From the IMG/VR virus record IMGVR_UViG_3300045836_000130, positions 1-38,108 of that record: DNA of 38,108 bases. The stretch is one strand, 5' to 3'. Both the position numbers and the translations under genes were made by a program. The stretch comes from a virus. This document shows, one piece after another, positions 6,795-18,490 of the stretch. The notes beneath the pieces were generated by a model, which made no database searches, was not told where the DNA came from, and saw only the letters and a list, made by a program, of their open reading frames with translations. The number at the start of each line of letters is the position of its first letter. The first letter of the stretch is position 1.

Positions 6795-7451
6795 ATGGGA
6801 CTGATAAGTGATGTCAGGTCGGTAAGTATGGCATTGGCGGCAATCCCGTTCCGGATCATCGGCGACTACCTCAATCGGCCGCCGACCATCCCTCCGGCAG
6901 TGATCTCGTCATCGGGACAACTGGAAAGCGGAGATGTCGATCCCCTCGGCAGTGACGAGAGCGAGCTTGCCGGTCAATGGCCCGAGGAAGAGTGGAAGTC
7001 CATTCAGCGCTGTGAGAGCATCCGGTGGCGGAATTTCCTTCCCGAGGAACCAGACAAGAGGCTTGCTGAGGAGAAAGTTGTCCGAATTCAATGGGGTCTT
7101 CGGCTGCCGAATGGCGAGGTGCATTGGGATACCTGGAGCGGTATCTCTTTTTTTACACCGCTGGATCGTCTGAAGATGGTGGCCACACTACAGAAGACTG
7201 CATTGGATATGGGGTTAAATGAGGGTGATCAGACAAAGGAGTTTCTAAATAAGTATAGTTGGCAGACACGAGAGCAAACGAGTAGGATCAGTTACTGCAA
7301 TACTGTGTCCTATGCTCTGACCGATCCAGCGGTCTCTGCTGCTCCTGAGGAAATTCCCAATGATGACGACCCCCAAGGCAATTCACCCCATGACAACTCC
7401 TTCTATCCCCATCGAGACCTTCACCCGGGATTTGTGGGAGGCGATGCGTGA
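6795..7451 (+). CDS. Hypothetical protein, 218 aa
   Basis: ATG start seven bases after the portal stop, without a strong SD, so coupling to the portal is likely. A short hydrophobic N-terminal segment (VSMALAAIPFRIIGDYL) is followed by an acidic middle. The second half has alternating aromatic and charged residues (VRIQWGLRLPNGEVHWDTWSG) and a helical segment. No family recognised. Base composition drops within the gene (about 7140-7320 is AT-rich). The 3' end overlaps the next gene by about 90 bases, more than anywhere else in the window, so one of the two boundaries may be off. Confidence 0.65.
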   Translation: MGLISDVRSVSMALAAIPFRIIGDYLNRPPTIPPAVISSSGQLESGDVDPLGSDESELAGQWPEEEWKSIQRCESIRWRNFLPEEPDKRLAEEKVVRIQWGLRLPNGEVHWDTWSGISFFTPLDRLKMVATLQKTALDMGLNEGDQTKEFLNKYSWQTREQTSRISYCNTVSYALTDPAVSAAPEEIPNDDDPQGNSPHDNSFYPHRDLHPGFVGGDA

Positions 7452-8857: not shown

Positions 8858-11800
8858 GTGCACACAGAGGGAACTCGCGTTCACACCCCTCACGGCATCG
8901 GAACCATCACCGAGGTGGACAAGGTACGCGGGTTCACCCAGTACCGCATCGCCGGGGCGGGCTTCAACGTCTGGCTGGATGCCACCAAGGTGCACGCCGC
9001 CGGGCTGGAGACCACCGTGGACCCCGGGCGGCCCTACGAGGTCAACCGGGACAACTCCACCACGCTGCCCTACGACCCCTCGCCGCAGTACCACACCGAC
9101 CTCTTTCGCCAGGAGCAGACCATCCTGCCCGGTGACTACGAGATCGACCCCGAGGACCGGCTGCGCTCGTCGGACTCGCTGACGCTGAACAAAAAGAGCC
9201 CCAACCGCCCCTACCCCGGCCCGAACCCGGACTTGTTCGCCAAGACCTCGGCCTACCACTACAGCGAGTTTGAGGACACCGATCCCGAGCGCCCAGAATG
9301 GGGTAGCGACGAGTGGCACCGCGACCTGCCCGACGTGGAGCGCACTTTCGACGCCGCCTGCCGCCCGGCCGGGCTCTCGGATCGCTACGCGCACATCATC
9401 GAGGCCGCCGACCACTCTGAGGTCGGCCAGTTCCGTGCCGACCCGCTGGGGTATCTGCAGCGCACCGCGCACGTGCACATCGCCGGGGAAGAGGGCTATC
9501 TAGAGCAGAAGTTTGCCGACTACACTCACTTGCTCGACGCCGATCCGGCGATGCGCACCGCCGCCTGGAAGGACGTGGCGGCCAAGGCCAAGGCTCTGCG
9601 CGCCGAGGGCCGGGTGCACCCCGAGGACATCGGCCCCAACCGGATCATGGCCAAGGTCGAGGGCGACAACGGCACTTATCAGACGCTGGTGCTGCGTGGT
9701 CCCGGTTATGCCGGGATTGGCAAGGGGGCTAACTCGGCCACCTTCTCCTGCACCTGCCAGTGGGGCAAATGGGCGTTCAAGCGCCAGTTCACCTTCGTCG
9801 GGCGGATGTGCAGCCACGCCCTGGCCACGCTTTGGGAGCTGCAGAGCCACTCTGCCAAGGGCAACTCCGGAACCTTCAAGGCTGCCGGGGTGGTGGAGGA
9901 CTTTAAGAAGTGGGCCGAGGAGAACAATGACGGCCACTTGGACGACACTTCGATTGAAGACTTCATCAATACCTCCGAGGACGACGTGTCGCGCGAGGAT
10001 GCGGCCAAGCTCTACGAGTACCTCGATGAGCACCTGCAGGAGGCTCCTGAGCGCGACTACGACATCCCCTACACCCTCGATAATGACGAGGCCTACAAGA
10101 CCGCCGCCGACGCCGAGGTGGCGGTGCTGCGCACCCGCCCGGAGAGCCTGACTCCCGATCTGCGCATCGTGCCGCAGAACCGTGAACACGACTGGACCGA
10201 TGTCACCGAGGACGACCGCACGACCACCGGCCCCGGCCAGATCATGACCGGCTCGCAGGACGGGCACTTAGAGATCGACTGGGAGGGCGAGCATCACCCC
10301 GACGTGCCGCAGTGCCCGTCAGACGGTCATGAGGACGTGGGAGAGATCCTGCACTTCGCCAATTTCACGGCCCGGCTACACACCGCTGATGACGGTGGGT
10401 TTGAGCACAGCGACACCGATGTGGGCGGCAATCCCCATCTGCCGGGCTGGCTCAAGGGTATCGGCCATGGTCTCGCCGAGGCTTTCGATCCCAATCCTGC
10501 CCACAGCTATGGCACCGATCCCCGCAGTGGGCTGGAGAAGCCCTCTGCTCCCGCAGACACCTCGACCGGACTGGATCTCTCGGGCGTGGAGACACTTAGC
10601 GGTGAGCATCCGGGCACCTCGGGCGTGGATACCTCCTCGGCCAGTGGGATCGGCAAGAATACCGGTGGAGATCTGAGCATCACCGATTACCTGCACCCCC
10701 AGGGCGCTCCGGCCGCTTCTGCGGGGACTGCCGCTCCCGCTGTGCCCGCCCCGGCTGGTCAGGGAGCACCCCCGGCTCCCGGTGCTCCTCCGGCTCCTGC
10801 CACCCCGGGTTCACCGGGCGCTCCCGGGACTGCGCCTGCAGGGGGCTCCAGCGCCGGGCACTTCAACGATGCCGGGGATTATGTGGTCGGTCAGGGGGAC
10901 ACGCTCTCGGGCATCATGCAGTCCCACGGCGGGGGTGACTGGCACTCGTTGGTGAATCAGAACAAGGGGGACATCGGCACCCAGGGCACCAACATCGAGA
11001 CCAATCCCGATCTGATCCACCCCGGTGACGTGTTGCACGGGGTGCCCGGTGCGCCCAAACCACCGGCTGCTCCGGGGACCGACACCTCGGGCAATGCCGC
11101 CTCGGGAGCCGGGGACGAGACGTTGTTCGGCCAGGACAACAAGCCCGGCAATGCCGGTGCGCCCCCGGCAGCCCCCGCTGCTCCACCACTGCCCGCAGGG
11201 GTCGGATCGACCGGCGGAGGCGCTAACCCACTGGCCAACCAGGCCTTGCCCAACGACGCCAAGGCGGGGCAGTCCCCCATTGACAACACCAATCACAGTA
11301 AGTCGGGTCGTCGCCGTTACAGCGAGGACATGCGTCCCGACACCGGGGAGGCCGCCGGGAAACTTGATCAGCTCCGGGAGAAGTCGCAAGACGACTTCCA
11401 CCCTCAGCACATGGATTCCTACAATGACGAGATCCGCGACCTGGTGGATGATCTCCAAGACGCCGGGGTGGATGCCAGCCCGATTGTGGCCCGGCTGCAC
11501 CAGGCCGACAACCCCGCCGATGGCAATCCCGACTTCGCCGGGATCTCCTCGCCGGGCTGGGCCGACGAGCCGTTCTCGGGTTCGGGGCCCGATCACCGCC
11601 GCTATTTCTCGGACTCGGCATCCTATGTCGCCGACCATGAGCGTCCGCACATCGAGGACGACTGGTATGACGATGATGGCGAGGACATCGTGAAATTCAA
11701 CGACTCACGCAGCCGTCCCCAGCAGGGGCCCCGACACTCCTCGGCCACCGTTAAGCGCCACGGCGGCCCGCGTCGCTCCCCGCGCATCGATCCCGGAACA

Positions 11801-12166
11801 CGCCAGCAGCGCCAGATGCTGCGCCATGCCGAGGGCATTGCCCCCGCCGAGGAGGATGCCACCTCGCTGCCCATCCCCGATACCGCCGATCCGCTGGCCG
11901 ACTCCACCGACATCGTGGCCAATTTCCAGCGCTCTGCGGCGGCTGCCGACCTGATGAGCAATGCCCCCTCCGGGGGTGGCGGCGGTGGCCGGTTCTCCGA
12001 TGACGACATTGCCAACCATGCCCGCGAGGCGATGTTGCGCACTGCCGGGCGCAAGTTCACCCTGGCCGAGCAACGGGAGCTGGAGGAGGAAGAACACCAT
12101 CTCGGGGCCAGGAACATGCCCACCGACGCTGATCTGGCCGGGACGCACTACCTCATGGGCCGCTGA
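8858..12166 (+). CDS. LysM- and SWIM-domain head/virion protein, 1102 aa
   Basis: GTG start with AGAGGAGG upstream. Domains seen: an N-terminal segment (HTPHGIGTITEVDK) resembling small beta barrels; a SWIM-type zinc motif CxC-x17-CxH (Cys298, Cys300, Cys318, His320), a fold usually binding nucleic acid or protein; an acidic helical stretch; a Pro/Ala/Gly-rich linker (~625-670); a LysM domain (~674-730, DYVVGQGDTLSGIM ending HPGDVLHGVP), which binds peptidoglycan-type glycans; a second low-complexity linker; and a charged C-terminus with GRRRYSED and HRRYFSD motifs. LysM in a phage protein of this region suggests a virion component that touches the cell wall. SWIM plus LysM in one chain is unusual. 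The TGA overlaps the protease ATG by one base. Function is inferred from domains and position. Confidence 0.8.
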   Translation: MHTEGTRVHTPHGIGTITEVDKVRGFTQYRIAGAGFNVWLDATKVHAAGLETTVDPGRPYEVNRDNSTTLPYDPSPQYHTDLFRQEQTILPGDYEIDPEDRLRSSDSLTLNKKSPNRPYPGPNPDLFAKTSAYHYSEFEDTDPERPEWGSDEWHRDLPDVERTFDAACRPAGLSDRYAHIIEAADHSEVGQFRADPLGYLQRTAHVHIAGEEGYLEQKFADYTHLLDADPAMRTAAWKDVAAKAKALRAEGRVHPEDIGPNRIMAKVEGDNGTYQTLVLRGPGYAGIGKGANSATFSCTCQWGKWAFKRQFTFVGRMCSHALATLWELQSHSAKGNSGTFKAAGVVEDFKKWAEENNDGHLDDTSIEDFINTSEDDVSREDAAKLYEYLDEHLQEAPERDYDIPYTLDNDEAYKTAADAEVAVLRTRPESLTPDLRIVPQNREHDWTDVTEDDRTTTGPGQIMTGSQDGHLEIDWEGEHHPDVPQCPSDGHEDVGEILHFANFTARLHTADDGGFEHSDTDVGGNPHLPGWLKGIGHGLAEAFDPNPAHSYGTDPRSGLEKPSAPADTSTGLDLSGVETLSGEHPGTSGVDTSSASGIGKNTGGDLSITDYLHPQGAPAASAGTAAPAVPAPAGQGAPPAPGAPPAPATPGSPGAPGTAPAGGSSAGHFNDAGDYVVGQGDTLSGIMQSHGGGDWHSLVNQNKGDIGTQGTNIETNPDLIHPGDVLHGVPGAPKPPAAPGTDTSGNAASGAGDETLFGQDNKPGNAGAPPAAPAAPPLPAGVGSTGGGANPLANQALPNDAKAGQSPIDNTNHSKSGRRRYSEDMRPDTGEAAGKLDQLREKSQDDFHPQHMDSYNDEIRDLVDDLQDAGVDASPIVARLHQADNPADGNPDFAGISSPGWADEPFSGSGPDHRRYFSDSASYVADHERPHIEDDWYDDDGEDIVKFNDSRSRPQQGPRHSSATVKRHGGPRRSPRIDPGTRQQRQMLRHAEGIAPAEEDATSLPIPDTADPLADSTDIVANFQRSAAAADLMSNAPSGGGGGGRFSDDDIANHAREAMLRTAGRKFTLAEQRELEEEEHHLGARNMPTDADLAGTHYLMGR

Positions 12167-15117
12167 TGGATGTCGAAGATCTGGCCCTGAATCCGGCGGA
12201 GTTGGTCCAGGAGCGCGAGCGCCGTGAGATCCATGCCGCACATGCCCGATGGGCCGAGTCCGATCAGGCCAAACAGCTGCTCATGCCGTATCGGCATGGT
12301 AGGTATGCGGCTATTGAGCCGGGCTTTGAATTCAAGCCAGGTTTTATTTACACCCAGGTTCGGGCCATCTCGGCCCGCATCAACCAGAATTACGATGCGT
12401 GGCCCAGTGAGGAACTCAAGAAGTCTTTTCGGACTTTTATCGGCAAGCCTATTTTTGTCAATCATCAGAATTTCGATCATCGCAAGGCTCGCGGCAAAGT
12501 GGTGGCTGCGCGCTATGTGGATGCTGGTGATGACCGCTATGTCGATACCGTCATGGAAGTGGACGCCCAGCGCTTCCCCAAGCTGGCTCACGAGTTAAAG
12601 ACCGGGGGCCTGGACTCGGTGTCCATGGGTGTGGAGGCCGGGTTCACCAAGTGCTCGATCTGTGACAACAAGGCCGTCGATGTCCCGGACTTCTGTGCGC
12701 ACGTCAAGTACCACAAAGGCTCCACGCTGCCGCACGCCAAGACCGGCAAGCCCACCCTGGTCTATGAGAACTGCTACAAGCTCGCGTTCTTTGAGCTGAG
12801 CTATGTCTTCGACCCGGCCGATGAGACAGCGGTGGTGTCGCGGGTGATCGCGGCCAGTAACAAGAAAGCTCAGGCCGAGGAGGAGCCCATGCCCGACGAG
12901 ATCGTGGAAGGTCAGATGCCAACCGGACAGATGCCCACCGCGCGCCGTCGCCGCGCCGAGACCTATCACGGCGAGGGCGACGTGGAGAAGAAGTCGGGAC
13001 CGTTCCTCGGTGAAGATGGGTCTTTCCCGGTCGGTACCCAGAAGGACAAGAACGACGCCAAGGACGTATGCAACTTCCCCTCGGTGCGCTCCAAGAACCC
13101 CGAGGAGTGTGCCAAGGCCGACAAGCTCTCTCGGGTGGAGGCGCGGATCAACCGACTGGCTTACGGCGAAGTGGAAGCGCCGGAGGACGTAGACACTCTC
13201 AGAGATGAGTCTGAGGATGACAATGATGATTTCAAGCATTATGTGGAGTCTCCCAAGGAACTCCAGCAACCCAACTTAGACCGCACCCAGCAATTGGACC
13301 GCACTCAGGAGTCCGAAGGCCTTGATACCCCTCGGCGGGTGGAGCAGGTCGAGGACGTGGGTGGTCATTTGATGGGCCAAGAACCAAGAAATAGTGACCG
13401 CCGCGATATTGAGGAGATCAAACTCATGGCTCATACACTGGTCGATCCCCGCACCGGGAAGCGCTATGTCGCGGCCGACGAGGACGAGCAAGGCCCCCCG
13501 CCCGACTTCGGTGGCGAGGACGAGGCTGGTGACGACGACGACTCCTACATGGAAGGCGACGACAGCAGCGACGACGACAGTGGCGGTGATGACCTGTCGG
13601 GCAAGTCGGATGCCGAGCTGCTGGCCGAGGCCGAGGAGGACCTGGGTCGTGCCGAGGCCGAGATGGGCTCCGAGGACGACGGTGGCGACGAGGGCGACTG
13701 GGGCAGTGATGACTCCGGTGATGACGCCGCTGACGACTTCTCCGGTGACGACGACCTCGATGACGCCGGGGGCACCCCCGATGAAGACGTGCCGCCGTTC
13801 GGCCGGGACGAGGACGAGGATTCCGGCCCCCCGCGTGAGGGCCGCCGCCGCAACCGTAAAGCCAAGAAAGGACGCCAGCCCATGGGCCTGCAAGCACGTA
13901 ACCGGGTGGCCACCGCTGGCCGCCGCCGCCACTACGCCGATGACCAGGGCTACACCGATGGCGGTCCTTATGGGGAGAACGACCAGGGCGAGCAGGAGGA
14001 CGTGTTCATCTCCCAGACGCCGGGCACCGAGCCGGTGGCCGCACCCACCCCGGGTGACGACACGATCTCCAATACCGAGAACAATCTGGTGGAAGCCCGG
14101 TTGCGTCGCCGCATCCAACAGCGCAATGCCGAGTTGAAGCGCGACATCATCGCCTATGAGCAGATCACCGGCCGCCGGGTGGCCAACCGCCGCTACGCCG
14201 AGGATGACAACCTGCCTAACCTGCCCGATCAGTCCACTGGTGGCACTGAGACCCCCGACCAGGTGGACCCTACCGTGGATGACCCGGCCGGAGAGGACCT
14301 CACCGGTGACAACTTCACCTCGGTGGCTCTCGATGGTGGCTCGGGTGCCGAGACCCAGCCCAAGGACGCCAGCGTGCGTGCCTTCAAAGCCTTCGACAAC
14401 TGGCTGGCCCGCACCACCGGGCGCACTGCTGCCCAGCATGGCAACCCCAACTTCATTCGGCGCAGTGCCGCGCACTACTGCCAGGCCGCCGGGGTCCCGG
14501 TGGAGTCGCTGTTCCCCAAGCTGGGATCTGTGTTGCGGCAAGCCAGAAAGAATGAGAGGAGTGGCTCCATGAGACGACGTGCGGATGAGAAGCTGGATGT
14601 TGCGGCTCCGCAGGATCGTATTGATGTGGAGGCTCCGGTCAGTGATGTCACTGATCAAGAGGCACAGGCCAGTCAGTACAGCCTCAGTGACTTTGGCGAT
14701 AACGCCGGAGACAATGTGGCTGATCCTGAGCTGAGCCCGGACTCGCAGATCTGGGCACCGGGGGAAGGTGACTCGGCAGCCGGATCGAACCGGGAGTCCA
14801 ACCGCAAGGCCAGCGGCATTGCTGCGGTGCGTTACGCAGAAGCCTTCATCAAGGCCGGTCTTGCGCCTGACACCCCCGAGGAAAAGTGGAAGATCGCCGG
14901 GCTCGCGCAGAACATGCGTCACGCCCAGATCGTGGACCGGACGAACCTGCTGGATGCTGTCAATCAGGTCAACCGCGCTCGCACCGCTCGCCGCACCGCC
15001 GCCACCAACGGCTCGCGTATCCCGCAAGGGCTGACGCAACGTCAGCTGACGGCCGGTAGCCGCAGCGCTGCCGCCAACGACCCGTCTAGTGACTTCGCCC
15101 TCTTCATGAAGGGCTAA
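12166..15117 (+). CDS. Prohead maturation protease fused to acidic scaffold-like region, 983 aa
   Basis: The first ~215 residues look like a phage prohead protease: FIGKPIFVNHQNFDHRKARG (His100, His105) and, about 50 residues on, GLDSVSMG (Ser151/Ser153), matching the His/Ser spacing of T4 gp21-type serine proteases. A zinc-like Cys163/166/177-His179 cluster follows. A small Cys-containing segment (GPFLGEDGSFPVGTQKDKND) is at ~280-300. Residues ~430-560 are extremely rich in Asp, Glu, Gly and Ser, as in scaffold proteins. The remainder is helical with RRRHYADD, RRYAEDD and RRRADE motifs. Good internal SD/ATG pairs occur at 13426, 13882 and 14569, so shorter in-frame products are likely. The protease would cleave scaffold and capsid proteins during head maturation. 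It lies immediately upstream of the capsid genes. Confidence 0.8.
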   Translation: MDVEDLALNPAELVQERERREIHAAHARWAESDQAKQLLMPYRHGRYAAIEPGFEFKPGFIYTQVRAISARINQNYDAWPSEELKKSFRTFIGKPIFVNHQNFDHRKARGKVVAARYVDAGDDRYVDTVMEVDAQRFPKLAHELKTGGLDSVSMGVEAGFTKCSICDNKAVDVPDFCAHVKYHKGSTLPHAKTGKPTLVYENCYKLAFFELSYVFDPADETAVVSRVIAASNKKAQAEEEPMPDEIVEGQMPTGQMPTARRRRAETYHGEGDVEKKSGPFLGEDGSFPVGTQKDKNDAKDVCNFPSVRSKNPEECAKADKLSRVEARINRLAYGEVEAPEDVDTLRDESEDDNDDFKHYVESPKELQQPNLDRTQQLDRTQESEGLDTPRRVEQVEDVGGHLMGQEPRNSDRRDIEEIKLMAHTLVDPRTGKRYVAADEDEQGPPPDFGGEDEAGDDDDSYMEGDDSSDDDSGGDDLSGKSDAELLAEAEEDLGRAEAEMGSEDDGGDEGDWGSDDSGDDAADDFSGDDDLDDAGGTPDEDVPPFGRDEDEDSGPPREGRRRNRKAKKGRQPMGLQARNRVATAGRRRHYADDQGYTDGGPYGENDQGEQEDVFISQTPGTEPVAAPTPGDDTISNTENNLVEARLRRRIQQRNAELKRDIIAYEQITGRRVANRRYAEDDNLPNLPDQSTGGTETPDQVDPTVDDPAGEDLTGDNFTSVALDGGSGAETQPKDASVRAFKAFDNWLARTTGRTAAQHGNPNFIRRSAAHYCQAAGVPVESLFPKLGSVLRQARKNERSGSMRRRADEKLDVAAPQDRIDVEAPVSDVTDQEAQASQYSLSDFGDNAGDNVADPELSPDSQIWAPGEGDSAAGSNRESNRKASGIAAVRYAEAFIKAGLAPDTPEEKWKIAGLAQNMRHAQIVDRTNLLDAVNQVNRARTARRTAATNGSRIPQGLTQRQLTAGSRSAAANDPSSDFALFMKG
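13411..13428 (+). promoter_or_regulatory. Internal ribosome binding site and ATG in the protease/scaffold gene (codon 421)
   Basis: GAGGAG at 13411-13416 followed after nine bases by an in-frame ATG (13426). A product starting here (MAHTLVDPRTGKRYVA) would begin just before the acidic scaffold-like region and lack the protease domain, analogous to Nu3 nested in gene C of lambda. Confidence 0.5.
13867..13884 (+). promoter_or_regulatory. Internal ribosome binding site and ATG in the protease/scaffold gene (codon 573)
   Basis: AAAGGA at 13867-13872, nine bases, then an in-frame ATG (13882) beginning MGLQARNRVATAGRRR. It falls at the junction between the acidic region and the helical C-terminal part. 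Confidence 0.4.
14554..14571 (+). promoter_or_regulatory. Internal ribosome binding site and ATG in the protease/scaffold gene (codon 802)
   Basis: GAGAGGAG at 14554-14561, seven bases, then an in-frame ATG (14569) beginning MRRRADEKLDVAAP. This is as good a Shine-Dalgarno site as any at a gene start in the window, in the middle of an open frame. The codons around it (aagaatgagaggagt) are not those preferred in the flanking sequence. Confidence 0.55.
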
Positions 15118-15152
15118 TCGGTCTATTTCTTAATTGAAAGGCTAAGGAGACC

Positions 15153-15692
15153 ATGTTCTACGCACCGATTTCCAACCCTGCGCTGAAGAGAAGCATTCGG
15201 CCGATTTTCGCGCAGCACCAAGCGACCACCTGGCCGGGCTTTTTGGACCCGAACTGGAATCGCAGTTTCGACATCTATCCGGGCACCGTGATGTGCCGCC
15301 TGGAAAAGGAGATCTACACTCCTTACACCGGGGCGGGCAATCAGCGTCCGTTTGGCCTCTCGGCCTTCTTCGTCTCCCCGCAACTGGGGGTGGACGAGGT
15401 GACGGCCACCGGCACCAACCTGTTCACGGTATGGGTCGGCGGCGAGCAAGCGGTCTTTGAGATCCTGGCTCCCGGTTTCGACCAGACCGCGAACTGGACG
15501 GCGGCCAATGTCACCGATGGTGGCTACCAGCTGCTGACCGCCACCAACCAGGGTCTGCTGACTCCCACGGGTGTCACCGAGGCCAATGCCATCGCCGAGC
15601 TGATCGACGTGGAGTCCACCGACAAGATCCTGATCCGGATGAACCGCTTCGCCTTCGGCGGTGCGACGACTCCGACCCTGCCCACCCCGTAA
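15153..15692 (+). CDS. Capsid-associated (possibly decoration) protein, 179 aa
   Basis: ATG preceded by AAGGAGA. The product is beta-rich (TVMCRLEKEIYTPYTG, NLFTVWVGGEQAVFEIL) with a Pro/Thr end. It lies between the protease/scaffold gene and the major capsid gene, a common place for head decoration or stabilising proteins, and is separated from both by short leaders with strong SD sites, as expected for abundant products. No sequence family recognised, so the decoration role is positional inference. Confidence 0.7.
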   Translation: MFYAPISNPALKRSIRPIFAQHQATTWPGFLDPNWNRSFDIYPGTVMCRLEKEIYTPYTGAGNQRPFGLSAFFVSPQLGVDEVTATGTNLFTVWVGGEQAVFEILAPGFDQTANWTAANVTDGGYQLLTATNQGLLTPTGVTEANAIAELIDVESTDKILIRMNRFAFGGATTPTLPTP

Positions 15693-15714
15693 GAAAGCTA
15701 AGGAGACAACCACC

Positions 15715-16722
15715 ATGACTGCCGCTATTCCGCAGGCTCTCGGTTCGGGGTTGCAGCGCACTGCACGCCATTCCGAGGACTACGTGGCCGATATCCAGTC
15801 CATGATGGACAAGATGGGCGGCCGCAAGCTCTCACACCGCCAAAAGCAGGCCAAACTGCAGCACATCCTCGCCGACCGTCAGCATGGCATCATGCGCCTC
15901 GGTCAGTCGATGATCGGCCCGATCCAGCTGCAGCTCCGCTACCAAGGCATCCTGCGCAATGTTTTGCTGGAAGACACCCTGACTCCAGGCGTGCCGATTC
16001 AGTACGACGTGCTGGACGACCTCGGTCAGGCCTACATGCTGCACGGCGATGAGGGTGAAATCAAAATCACCCCGTTTGAAGGAAAGCGCGTTGAGGTGCG
16101 TCTTTTCCGCATCGCGTCGTTCCCGAAGATCAAGAAGGAAGACCTCTACTACCTGCGGTCCAACATCGTGGAGTACACCCAGGACTACACGAAACAGGCC
16201 ATCATGCGCCAAGAGGACTCCCGCCTGATCACTTTGCTGGAGGTTGCGGCAGCAAACTACCAGCTGGTGGACACCTCGGCCGTGCCCGGCACCGGCTCGT
16301 TGCCCAACGAGATCACCATCGCCGGGTCCACGCTGATGCCGAGTGATCTCTACACCGCCGTGACCTTCACCGACCAGCGCATGCTGGATTCCTCGCGGCT
16401 GCTGTGCAATCCGCAGGAATACCGGGACTTTTACCGCTGGGACATCAACACCACCGGCTGGGCGTTCAAGGATTCGGTGGTCGCGGGCGAGAAGATTGTC
16501 CAGTTTGGTGAATTCCAGATTGGTAAGTCAATCATCATCCCGCGCGGCACGGTGTACCTCACGCCTGAGCCAGAATTCCTCGGCGTATTCCCGGTGATGT
16601 ACTCGCTGGATGTCGAGGAGAACAACCAGGTGGAACAATTCCACAAGGGATGGGTCATGGATGAGTTGGTTGGAATGGCGGTGCTTAACCCCCGCGGTAT
16701 CATAATTTTACGCAAGAGTTAA
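15715..16722 (+). CDS. Major capsid protein, 335 aa
   Basis: ATG 15715 (MTAAIPQALG) is chosen over an upstream frame extension because AAGGAGA lies just before it and the extension overlaps the previous gene. It is a soluble protein with an N-terminal helical arm (residues ~20-60, many Lys/Arg/Gln) and mixed alpha/beta body, without membrane or low-complexity parts. Position after protease/scaffold, strong SD, and an intrinsic terminator right after the gene fit the major head subunit. An HK97-type fold is expected from the family context but cannot be shown by eye. The gene uses a highly regular codon set, consistent with strong expression. Confidence 0.8.
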   Translation: MTAAIPQALGSGLQRTARHSEDYVADIQSMMDKMGGRKLSHRQKQAKLQHILADRQHGIMRLGQSMIGPIQLQLRYQGILRNVLLEDTLTPGVPIQYDVLDDLGQAYMLHGDEGEIKITPFEGKRVEVRLFRIASFPKIKKEDLYYLRSNIVEYTQDYTKQAIMRQEDSRLITLLEVAAANYQLVDTSAVPGTGSLPNEITIAGSTLMPSDLYTAVTFTDQRMLDSSRLLCNPQEYRDFYRWDINTTGWAFKDSVVAGEKIVQFGEFQIGKSIIIPRGTVYLTPEPEFLGVFPVMYSLDVEENNQVEQFHKGWVMDELVGMAVLNPRGIIILRKS

Positions 16723-16744
16723 TTTCTGACCTGCGTAAACGCTT

Positions 16745-16777
16745 AAGCCCCGTACCTCACAAGGGTGCGGGGCTTTT
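16745..16777 (+). terminator. Intrinsic terminator after the major capsid gene
   Basis: A 12-13-base stem (AAGCCCCGTACC paired with GGGTGCGGGGCTT, one G-U pair) with a six-base loop, ending in TTTT. It lies 22 bases after the capsid stop and ends the capsid transcription block before the endonuclease gene. Confidence 0.88.
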
Positions 16778-16857
16778 GCATGTCAAGATTAAGTATTGCC
16801 CGAATAACCAGTGCGTCCATAGGCCAACCCTTCCGTAATGAAAATGTTCAATCCTCG

Positions 16858-16873
16858 TGCTATACTGACCGCA
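16858..16873 (+). promoter_or_regulatory. Extended -10 promoter giving a leaderless endonuclease mRNA
   Basis: TGCTATACT (extended -10: TGn-TATACT, hexamer at 16861-16866) ends six bases before the ATG at 16873. A transcript from this -10 would start at or within a base or two of the ATG, and no Shine-Dalgarno sequence precedes the ATG. Leaderless mRNAs with this geometry are common in mycobacteria. No clear -35 is visible, as is usual for extended -10 promoters. Confidence 0.62.
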
Positions 16874-17871
16874 TGGCACCAGGGCTGAAACATCCACGAC
16901 GGGACGAGGGGCGAGAGCTATGGCTCCAAGGTCACTCGTTGAAGCATATTGCCGACATTCTCGGCGTCAGTGATCGTAGTGTGCGAGATTGGCGAGATCG
17001 AGATAAATGGCCTGAGCGAGATTACGAATTGCCTCAGCGATACTCAGATTCACGTCGTAAAAAAGCCGATGCTGAATTTGAGGCTGTAAAAGATGAGCTT
17101 GCCCAGGTATGGAAAGATTCCTTTCAGCCCAAGACTGTGGGGCGTACTAATGGCGTGATCATGCAAGGGTCTGCTCAGCGCGTAGCCGAGCATTTTGGTT
17201 GGTCCCCTAGTAAGGCCAACAAGTTCCTGAAGCGTGCAGGGTTGATGCAAGACAGACCCTCTAGTAAGAAGCAGGGCGAGGAGGCTATGCGGCTGTTTAA
17301 GTCTGGATGGTCGGTACCCAGAATTACCGAGCATCTGGAGGTCAACCAAGACTCTGTTCGTAACTGGCTGAAGGAGCGCGGTGTGGAGCTGTCTGCGGTC
17401 TCTCATACCACCCGGATGAGTCACGAGGAGAAGATGGCGTGGCGGCGCTCTATCAGCGCCGGGAAGGTCGCCTCTGTTGCTGGCTCTGGCCGTTTCAACT
17501 ACAACGGCCACCGCATGGACTCTACCTATGAGGTTAGGGTTGCGGCCGCGTGTGATCGTCTAAATATCCCGTGGCGGCTCTATGACCGTGCCGCTGACGG
17601 CGTGTTGGAGTATGAAGCCGAGGGCGGGGCGATTGTGCGCTACGCGCCCGACTTCTGGGTGATGGATCTGCCTGTTGAGGTCAAAGGAATTTTTGATGTG
17701 ACTGCACACACCAAGGTAACCAAGTGGCGTGAGCAGAAGGGTAAGCTGGCAATGATTATGAAGCAGGAACTACTTGATTTAGAGGATGCTCGCACACCGA
17801 GTGACGCCAACTCGATACTGGTGGCTGCCTGTTATCTAGACCCGCCGACAGACCCCGCGTATTGGGATTAG
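16873..17871 (+). CDS. PD-(D/E)XK endonuclease with N-terminal helix-turn-helix domains (homing-type), 332 aa
   Basis: ATG 16873 is chosen because of the promoter directly upstream; the frame is open earlier but would run into the terminator. Two helix-turn-helix segments are visible: residues ~18-45 (GHSLKHIADILGVSDRSVRDW) and ~140-170 (SGWSVPRITEHLEVNQDSVRNWL). The C-terminal part has the nuclease core: STYEVRVAAACDRLNIPW, then RYAPDF (Asp260) and, nine residues on, E269-V-K271, i.e. PD-(x)8-E-x-K. The combination resembles free-standing phage endonucleases that spread by cutting unoccupied sites. Lower GC and different codons (cga, gat, aaa) than neighbours, its own promoter, and insertion between terminator and next block all suggest a mobile gene. 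A DNA-binding regulator or a terminase-like protein is less likely. Confidence 0.75.
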   Translation: MAPGLKHPRRDEGRELWLQGHSLKHIADILGVSDRSVRDWRDRDKWPERDYELPQRYSDSRRKKADAEFEAVKDELAQVWKDSFQPKTVGRTNGVIMQGSAQRVAEHFGWSPSKANKFLKRAGLMQDRPSSKKQGEEAMRLFKSGWSVPRITEHLEVNQDSVRNWLKERGVELSAVSHTTRMSHEEKMAWRRSISAGKVASVAGSGRFNYNGHRMDSTYEVRVAAACDRLNIPWRLYDRAADGVLEYEAEGGAIVRYAPDFWVMDLPVEVKGIFDVTAHTKVTKWREQKGKLAMIMKQELLDLEDARTPSDANSILVAACYLDPPTDPAYWD

Positions 17872-17881
17872 TATCAACTCC

Positions 17882-18490
17882 ATGACAGTCCAGACACCTG
17901 ATCCTGACGACGAGTTGCGCATGGTGGAGAATCAGGACGACTTTGATCCTCAGCTTCAGTCTGCGCAGCAAGATTTCTTTGCCGATAAGGATGGTCTTAC
18001 TCTGAGACAGAGGCAGAATGCTGAGTTTCTTGAGCGCAAGAAGAAAACCATGCCGCCTAACCCCACCCAGGAGAAGGGGCGCAAGCTCTATGAGTGGTGG
18101 CGATCTGGCTGTGGGGTGCACGATCCCGCGCTGACCGAGATGACCCAGGACATGCGCCCGTTCGACAGGCTGAACCCCTACGAGCGGGCACGCTGGGTAG
18201 TGATGGCCAAGGCCCTGGGCGACCGCTTCCCGCACCACGAGCGGGTCCGGGGATCAAGGTTGACCGTGCCCGAGCAGGAGCAGCGCTACGCCGCCATCCC
18301 GGCGGGCACCGGCTGGGCCGAGTACGACAGCGCCCTCAACCCCGCCGAGAAGTGGAACGGCCAGTCCTGGAGCACCCGCAAGGTGCGGGTCTACTGGTGG
18401 CAGCTGTGGCGGCCGCTACCGGAGAAAACTGGGTACTCCCTGAGCTACGGGGATCATCTGGCTCCTGTCGCTCGCCGGGGGGACCTGTAA
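17882..18490 (+). CDS. Hypothetical protein, 202 aa
   Basis: Starts ten bases after the endonuclease stop, with no evident SD. The first ~56 codons are AT-richer and acidic/helical, like the endonuclease gene. From ATG 18050 (MPPNPTQEKGRKLYEWW) the composition returns to the GC-rich pattern of the region, so 18050 could be the ancestral start. The C-terminal half is Trp/Tyr/Arg-rich (VRVYWWQLWRPLP). No family recognised. The stop lies within the start of bipartite element C. Confidence 0.62.
   Translation: MTVQTPDPDDELRMVENQDDFDPQLQSAQQDFFADKDGLTLRQRQNAEFLERKKKTMPPNPTQEKGRKLYEWWRSGCGVHDPALTEMTQDMRPFDRLNPYERARWVVMAKALGDRFPHHERVRGSRLTVPEQEQRYAAIPAGTGWAEYDSALNPAEKWNGQSWSTRKVRVYWWQLWRPLPEKTGYSLSYGDHLAPVARRGDL

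Follow-up and report, generated by a model that had tools for sequence, protein, structure and literature searches.

Free-standing homing endonucleases that lie beside essential genes, and the shuffling of their domains, are already known (PMC2988022, PMC3706429, PMC10448857). The Seg and Mob enzymes of T4-like phages are encoded between genes and near essential ones, and are expressed from late or separate promoters; RNA hairpins mask the ribosome site in read-through mRNA, as for T4 I-TevI and Aeh1 mobE (PMC2988022). SegD adjoins the T4 major capsid gene 23, with segD in the opposite orientation, and the Seg and Mob enzymes cut at a distance of hundreds to thousands of bases from the nuclease gene (PMC2988022). 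In Cluster J mycobacteriophages free-standing HNH homing genes show precise occupied and empty insertion sites (PMC3706429), and homing endonuclease genes (HEGs) are enriched near phage capsid, terminase and ribonucleotide reductase (RNR) genes, with shuffled DNA-binding parts (PMC10448857). Engineered home-and-rescue and Cleave-and-Rescue drives consist of a nuclease aimed at an essential gene together with a linked, cut-resistant functional copy of that gene (PMC7968924, PMC7951863). Here we analyse the position directly past the major capsid gene (the slot) in a 38,108-nucleotide (nt) IMG/VR fragment of an actinobacterial virus (IMGVR_UViG_3300045836_000130; the window). Comparison with related genomes suggests that the nuclease gene found there is probably part of a free-standing homing endonuclease unit that is dedicated to the 3′ end of the capsid gene and carries its own cleavage-resistant rescue end.

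Like the Seg and Mob genes, the slot nuclease is intergenic and near an essential gene. Unlike them, the junction of its unit lies inside the target gene, of which it includes a recoded end, and its nucleases are of the PD-(D/E)XK class with predicted leaderless starts, where Seg and Mob enzymes are GIY-YIG or HNH proteins. It shares precise insertion in actinobacteriophages, proximity to capsid genes and domain shuffling with the HEGs described previously, and text searches of those two reports (PMC3706429, PMC10448857) found neither a recoded target-gene end nor a PD-(D/E)XK family at the capsid. A recoded target-gene end as part of a homing unit in phages was not found in the open-licence literature searched. 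The nearest design is the synthetic Cleave-and-Rescue drive (PMC7951863): in both, a nuclease that cuts the target (predicted in our case) is linked to a resistant copy of it. The engineered drives are synthetic and Cas9-based, whereas the slot unit is natural and has only the last 10-20 codons recoded.

Exchange and insertion of a unit at the capsid 3′ end

The window is a structural-gene block with an overall GC content of 0.623, whose kin are Bixzunavirus/Ceeclamvirinae and large Gordonia and Rhodococcus phages; no larger assembly containing it was found. Its capsid protein has 72-85% amino acid identity with those of Bixzunavirus, Skog, Finch and others. The capsid open reading frame has its own stop and a complete C-terminus ahead of the nuclease, so that the latter is not within an intron or intein. 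A sister contig is 98.9% identical across window positions 10,721-16,716, and in its slot is a different PD-(D/E)XK nuclease, of zinc-ribbon type; the DNA past its capsid gene is unrelated to that of the window. The two capsid proteins are identical, with 16 synonymous differences in the final 57 nt of the gene compared with five in the preceding 900 nt. This indicates that nuclease alleles have been swapped between near-identical phages, the switch starting inside the capsid gene, and that the exchanged block has its left boundary within these 57 nt or just upstream. A preliminary description of the window, made from its sequence alone, had taken the cassette to start at the terminator past the capsid gene, and so overlooked the capsid 3′ end as part of the unit.

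The same kind of recoded tip is present in RedWattleHog and in 17 Bixzunavirus phages, which fall into 10 slot classes. Within the latter the final 36 nt of the capsid gene differ by 19.8% between slot classes and by 3.1% within them, while divergence in no other 36-nt stretch of the gene exceeds 2.1%. None of 5000 permutations of the slot-class labels reached the observed tip divergence, and the C-terminal 11 residues encoded are identical in all 17 phages. Tip distance also tracks the distance between nuclease N-termini after removal of the capsid-body distance (partial r 0.48, p<0.001).

Comparison with nuclease-free relatives had been suggested as a means of finding the ends of the insertion, and a pair of Gordonia phages provides this. 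Up to the junction, RedWattleHog, which has the nuclease, shares 99.8% identity with Stormageddon, which lacks it. The capsid gene of Stormageddon ends in ...CTCAACGC-ACGCGGTCTC-ATCATCCTGCGCAAGTCCTAG. That of RedWattleHog runs to ...CTCAACGC and continues as a recoded synonymous tip that ends in TAG, having 8 differences in its final 31 nt, followed by a terminator, TATACT six bases ahead of an ATG, and a zinc-ribbon nuclease gene. The final 21 nt of this gene are ATCATCCTGCGCAAGTCCTAG, exactly the original capsid end, after which the Stormageddon sequence resumes at its stop. As these junction sequences show, a 752-nt cassette entered the RedWattleHog capsid gene in an interval of about ten bases at the Arg-Gly codons. 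These exact ends hold for the relatives' allele and not for the window's own. Elsewhere RedWattleHog differs from Stormageddon a second time by an HNH gene between the RNR and RNA ligase genes (L093 5548-5985), which is probably another homing gene.

Taken together, the genome comparisons show a unit comprising a recoded synonymous capsid 3′ tip, a terminator, its own, usually leaderless, predicted promoter and an HTH (helix-turn-helix) or zinc-ribbon/PD-(D/E)XK nuclease. They further show that exchange or insertion involves the block as a whole, the left junction falling within the capsid gene, and that in RedWattleHog the unit has been inserted in that gene, with the displaced original tip at the right end.

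Movement between more distant genomes can also be discerned. The capsid bodies of Mycobacterium phage Pier (L094) and the metagenomic locus L024 are 11.3% different and their tips have 0 of 36 differences. The two are 98-100% identical from the capsid stop to about +840, and unrelated further downstream, which points to recent transfer of the cassette independently of the flanking genome. This block is also found in FudgeTart, whose tip is in part different. In loci L007 and L048 the cassette and a passenger gene are followed by a second capsid tip (GGIVILRKA-stop and GIVILRKA-stop, respectively) and a second terminator. The passenger, whose product starts M[RH]RIVTAREQAEMLLPWR, lies downstream of the nuclease (or of what remains of it) and ahead of the displaced tip (L007 5958-6356 and L048 6258-6635); similar N-termini are encoded by genes past the capsid in the nuclease-free phages L062 and L070.

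At the Arg codon of the conserved N-P/A-R-G, all 21 carriers of the zinc-a type have AGG, AGA or CGT and never CGC, CGG or CGA, while 40 of the 58 phages without a detected nuclease have one of the latter three. As the sequences are related, this bias is a pattern and not a formal test. It nevertheless bears on an explanation by ordinary mosaicism, according to which homologous recombination between phages often takes place in the conserved capsid gene and the nuclease is carried along with other downstream DNA without being the driver. Tips diverge in nuclease-free pairs as well (L058/L062 and L072/L077), together with different downstream DNA, and many unrelated genes occupy the slot in relatives, both as mosaicism would predict. 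But simple allelic exchange would not give what is seen in RedWattleHog and Stormageddon, an insertion between near-identical flanks that leaves the old tip at its far end, nor does this explanation fit the avoidance of three codons at a single arginine by zinc-a carriers. We therefore regard it as unlikely.

The slot nucleases and their expression

The capsid neighbourhoods of 80 IMG/VR loci and of named phages were surveyed. The DNA 3′ of the capsid gene is highly variable, containing tail, fibre, RNR or unknown genes, or a member of the nuclease family. An iterated hidden Markov model of the window nuclease domain identified 19 loci with a nuclease directly past the capsid gene, on the same strand and 27-207 nt beyond the stop; in addition L048 has a 59-amino-acid (aa) nuclease remnant in the slot. 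The relatives are found in IMG/VR loci, Bixzunavirus, Myrnavirus and one Gordonia phage. The RedWattleHog protein matched 139 records in the phage collection; the matches listed are Bixzunavirus-type phages, Myrnavirus ScoobyDoobyDoo and RedWattleHog itself, and the gene is capsid-adjacent in every locus read. The dN/dS (ratio of nonsynonymous to synonymous rates) of about 0.11 for the L010/L007 pair indicates constraint. The preliminary description had held that its proposal would be refuted if all relatives had the gene at the same place and with the same composition. Many do carry a nuclease there, but the alleles differ and some phages have none. Its proposal of a mobile, self-expressed endonuclease unit is supported by the sister swap, the distant transfer, the occupied and empty pair in relatives, and the recurrence of the terminator and of the spacing between -10 and ATG.

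The N-termini are of two unrelated kinds. HTH-type N-termini are present in the window, in L036 (68% identity to the window), in L050 (59%) and in L060 and L066 (42%), all directly past the capsid gene, while all others are multi-zinc-ribbon. The 505-aa product of the slot gene of L051 (2650-4167) has a window-like HTH region joined to a different, EDxHD/Vsr-like nuclease; this gave a match to PHROG 3339 'homing endonuclease' (E 2e-45) and a weak one to Vsr. Both halves of the protein are therefore exchangeable. Relatives of the window protein of HTH type were found only at the capsid, by the neighbourhood survey; none was detected when 84,980 bacterial and archaeal genomes were scanned with a pattern based on the HTH alignment, and back-translated pattern searches using the window protein alone found no relatives.

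The window protein has two HTH regions (Pfam HTH_23, E 5e-16) and a nuclease domain with E220, D260, E269 and K271, of which E220, P259-D260 and K271 are invariant among the HTH and zinc types, in agreement with its original assignment as an HTH and PD-(D/E)XK nuclease. Two HTH regions, the HTH as the strongest family match, and a promoter and terminator of its own might be expected of a transcriptional regulator or passenger gene (moron) whose HTH acts on phage or host promoters and whose nuclease domain is vestigial. We consider this the least probable explanation, given that the catalytic residues are invariant across both types and that it is the nuclease domain and not the HTH that is common to the slot occupants.

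The nuclease domain has weak sequence similarity to T7 endonuclease I (E 1e-4 to 5e-4, PDB), whose catalytic motif Y-x-PDF...V-E-x-KG (1m0d, 3cae, 2pfj) aligns with that of the slot nuclease. An A2-alignment structure model (predicted local distance difference test 78.6, predicted template modelling score (pTM) 0.40) gave no significant match in a whole-model Foldseek search, with T7 endonuclease I at E 0.2; the VRR_NUC domain scored Z 6.6 by VIA-align 2 against this model of pTM 0.40. The similarity to the T7 enzyme, and the annotation of several records as 'holliday junction resolvase', are what one would expect of a housekeeping Holliday-junction resolvase or packaging nuclease that is capsid-adjacent by chance. 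Such a role seems very improbable, since the gene is missing from otherwise similar phages, the slot of the sister phage holds another allele, the DNA-binding region is exchanged wholesale and L051 has an EDxHD/Vsr-like enzyme in its place. T7 endonuclease I, which functions in junction resolution, has neither HTH nor zinc-ribbon regions.

The signals around the window gene are listed in Table 1. The terminator begins 22 nt past the capsid stop and is predicted to be stable (-28.9 kcal/mol; z -6.05 against shuffles), confirming the one proposed in the preliminary description; it is unseen by a simple scanner because the T run is short. All nuclease loci read have a strong hairpin 3′ of the capsid stop. 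The leaderless promoter proposed for the nuclease has TGC-TATACT at 16,858-16,866, 6 nt ahead of the ATG, with no Shine-Dalgarno (SD) sequence. By consensus alone such an extended -10 occurs at chance level (2 found and 1.8 expected in a 5-kb scan), and it is the spacing that lends it support: TANNNT ending 6-7 nt before the start codon is found in 20 of 29 slot nuclease genes compared with 2 of 56 other annotated genes of such phages, although the nuclease alleles are related, so that these counts are not independent. Three more nuclease loci (L013, L025 and L035) have a -35 upstream, a -10 within the hairpin and an SD sequence in the hairpin 3′ arm. In these composite elements (L013 6040-6095, L025 6036-6092, L035 6040-6098), which follow the logic of I-TevI and mobE, the SD sequence is predicted to be exposed only on transcripts from the gene's own promoter. 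With either layout, read-through capsid mRNA should give little nuclease.

Table 1. Coordinates of the features in and around the slot of the window
Feature	Position	Strand	Details
Major capsid (major head) protein gene, proposed target	15715..16722	+	PHROG 2522, E 8e-142
Recoded last 57 nt of capsid gene (relative to sister phage)	16666..16722	+	all differences synonymous
Intrinsic terminator between capsid mRNA and nuclease	16745..16775	+	13-bp stem 16745-16757/16763-16775
Predicted nuclease promoter	16838..16866	+	weak -35 ATGAAA, 17 nt, extended -10 TGCTATACT; predicted leaderless start at ATG 16873
HTH-HTH-PD-(D/E)XK nuclease gene, 332 aa	16873..17871	+	HTH residues ~10-44 and 133-168; nuclease domain ~206-305
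Next gene, 202 aa, function unassigned; possibly passenger or simply next gene	17882..18490	+	codons 1-56 low GC, rest high

Inverted repeats bounding the window's unit, such as would mark a DNA transposon, were looked for and none was found. Close to the capsid stop, HTH-type loci (window 16,726-16,734, L036, L050 and L060) have a CTGACCTGC-like motif in one orientation or the other. GACCTGC past the capsid stop of the HTH types was considered as a binding site and not used, as near-matches show only mild enrichment across the window (25 compared with 15 expected).

A proposed mechanism of homing and rescue

We suggest that in a co-infection the nuclease would cut the capsid gene of a phage that lacks it, at conserved codons near N-P/A-R-G. 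The cut would lie approximately 20-35 nt before the capsid stop, or up to about 57 nt for the HTH type of the window, whose two HTH regions would read another stretch of the site than do the zinc-ribbon proteins. Repair of the break from the carrier would copy the nuclease. The recoded tip would leave the capsid protein unchanged while altering the site, making the carrier immune, and the terminator and leaderless promoter would prevent the nuclease from being expressed from the abundant capsid mRNA. Homologous repair on one side, templated by the carrier capsid gene, together with end-joining of the right break would generate exactly the structure seen in RedWattleHog, and later exchanges between occupied phages would give the allele swaps. 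On balance we lean towards regarding the unit as a natural home-and-rescue drive, which would cut the capsid 3′ end of competitors, insert there and supply resistant synonymous last 10-20 codons, and as one of a family of module-swapping drives that compete for the slot across actinobacteriophages.

Several observations weigh against homing with rescue. For the window itself the support consists of the sister swap and homology; no empty-site partner of the window was found, and no displaced capsid tip was detectable downstream of its nuclease. Precise presence and absence in near-identical genomes is seen in relatives, where the exact occupied and empty pairs number just one, and the displaced tips of L007 and L048 may represent one shared event. 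At the Arg codon six of seven HTH-type carriers retain CGC; they must therefore have a different site, and any immunity must come from other codons. The divergence of tips in nuclease-free pairs makes the tip a recombination junction beyond nuclease carriers. Nor is the linkage of tip and nuclease absolute, as FudgeTart and Pier share a nuclease N-terminus yet differ at 4 of 36 tip bases. Lastly, Bixzunavirus phages without the nuclease gene keep sequence matching its 3′ end, and may therefore be deletions and not virgin sites.

If the proposed drive is correct, evolution has arrived at the design of synthetic rescue drives. It would also account for a gene that well over a hundred sequenced Bixzunavirus genomes carry under the annotation 'holliday junction resolvase' or 'HNH endonuclease'. 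Natural donor and recipient pairs are available in easily grown hosts for direct tests.

The next gene and base composition

The gene following the nuclease gave no family match in Pfam and PHROG searches. The lower GC content noted in the preliminary description is real: the nuclease gene has GC 0.549 and GC at third codon positions (GC3) 0.58, and codons 1-56 of the next gene have GC 0.494 and GC3 0.55, with a clear step at codon 56 where GC3 rises to 0.88. It is not unique, however, since 6795-7451 has GC 0.536 and about 5% of 999-nt stretches are equally low. With other genes equally low in GC, composition was dropped as the main argument for a foreign origin.

It had further been proposed that the insert replaced the start of this gene, with an end at 18,050. 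The sole relative found, at the left edge of the sister contig, has 88% DNA identity over 18,016-18,101 and so runs across the proposed join, and an insertion end at that position was rejected. The segment concerned (L009 5800-6190, the left end of contig IMGVR_UViG_3300044693_000328) matches codons 46-73 of the window gene in reverse complement. Immediately next to it is an HNH fragment, upstream of a gene for a virion protein, and the arrangement is either an assembly chimera or a true rearrangement.
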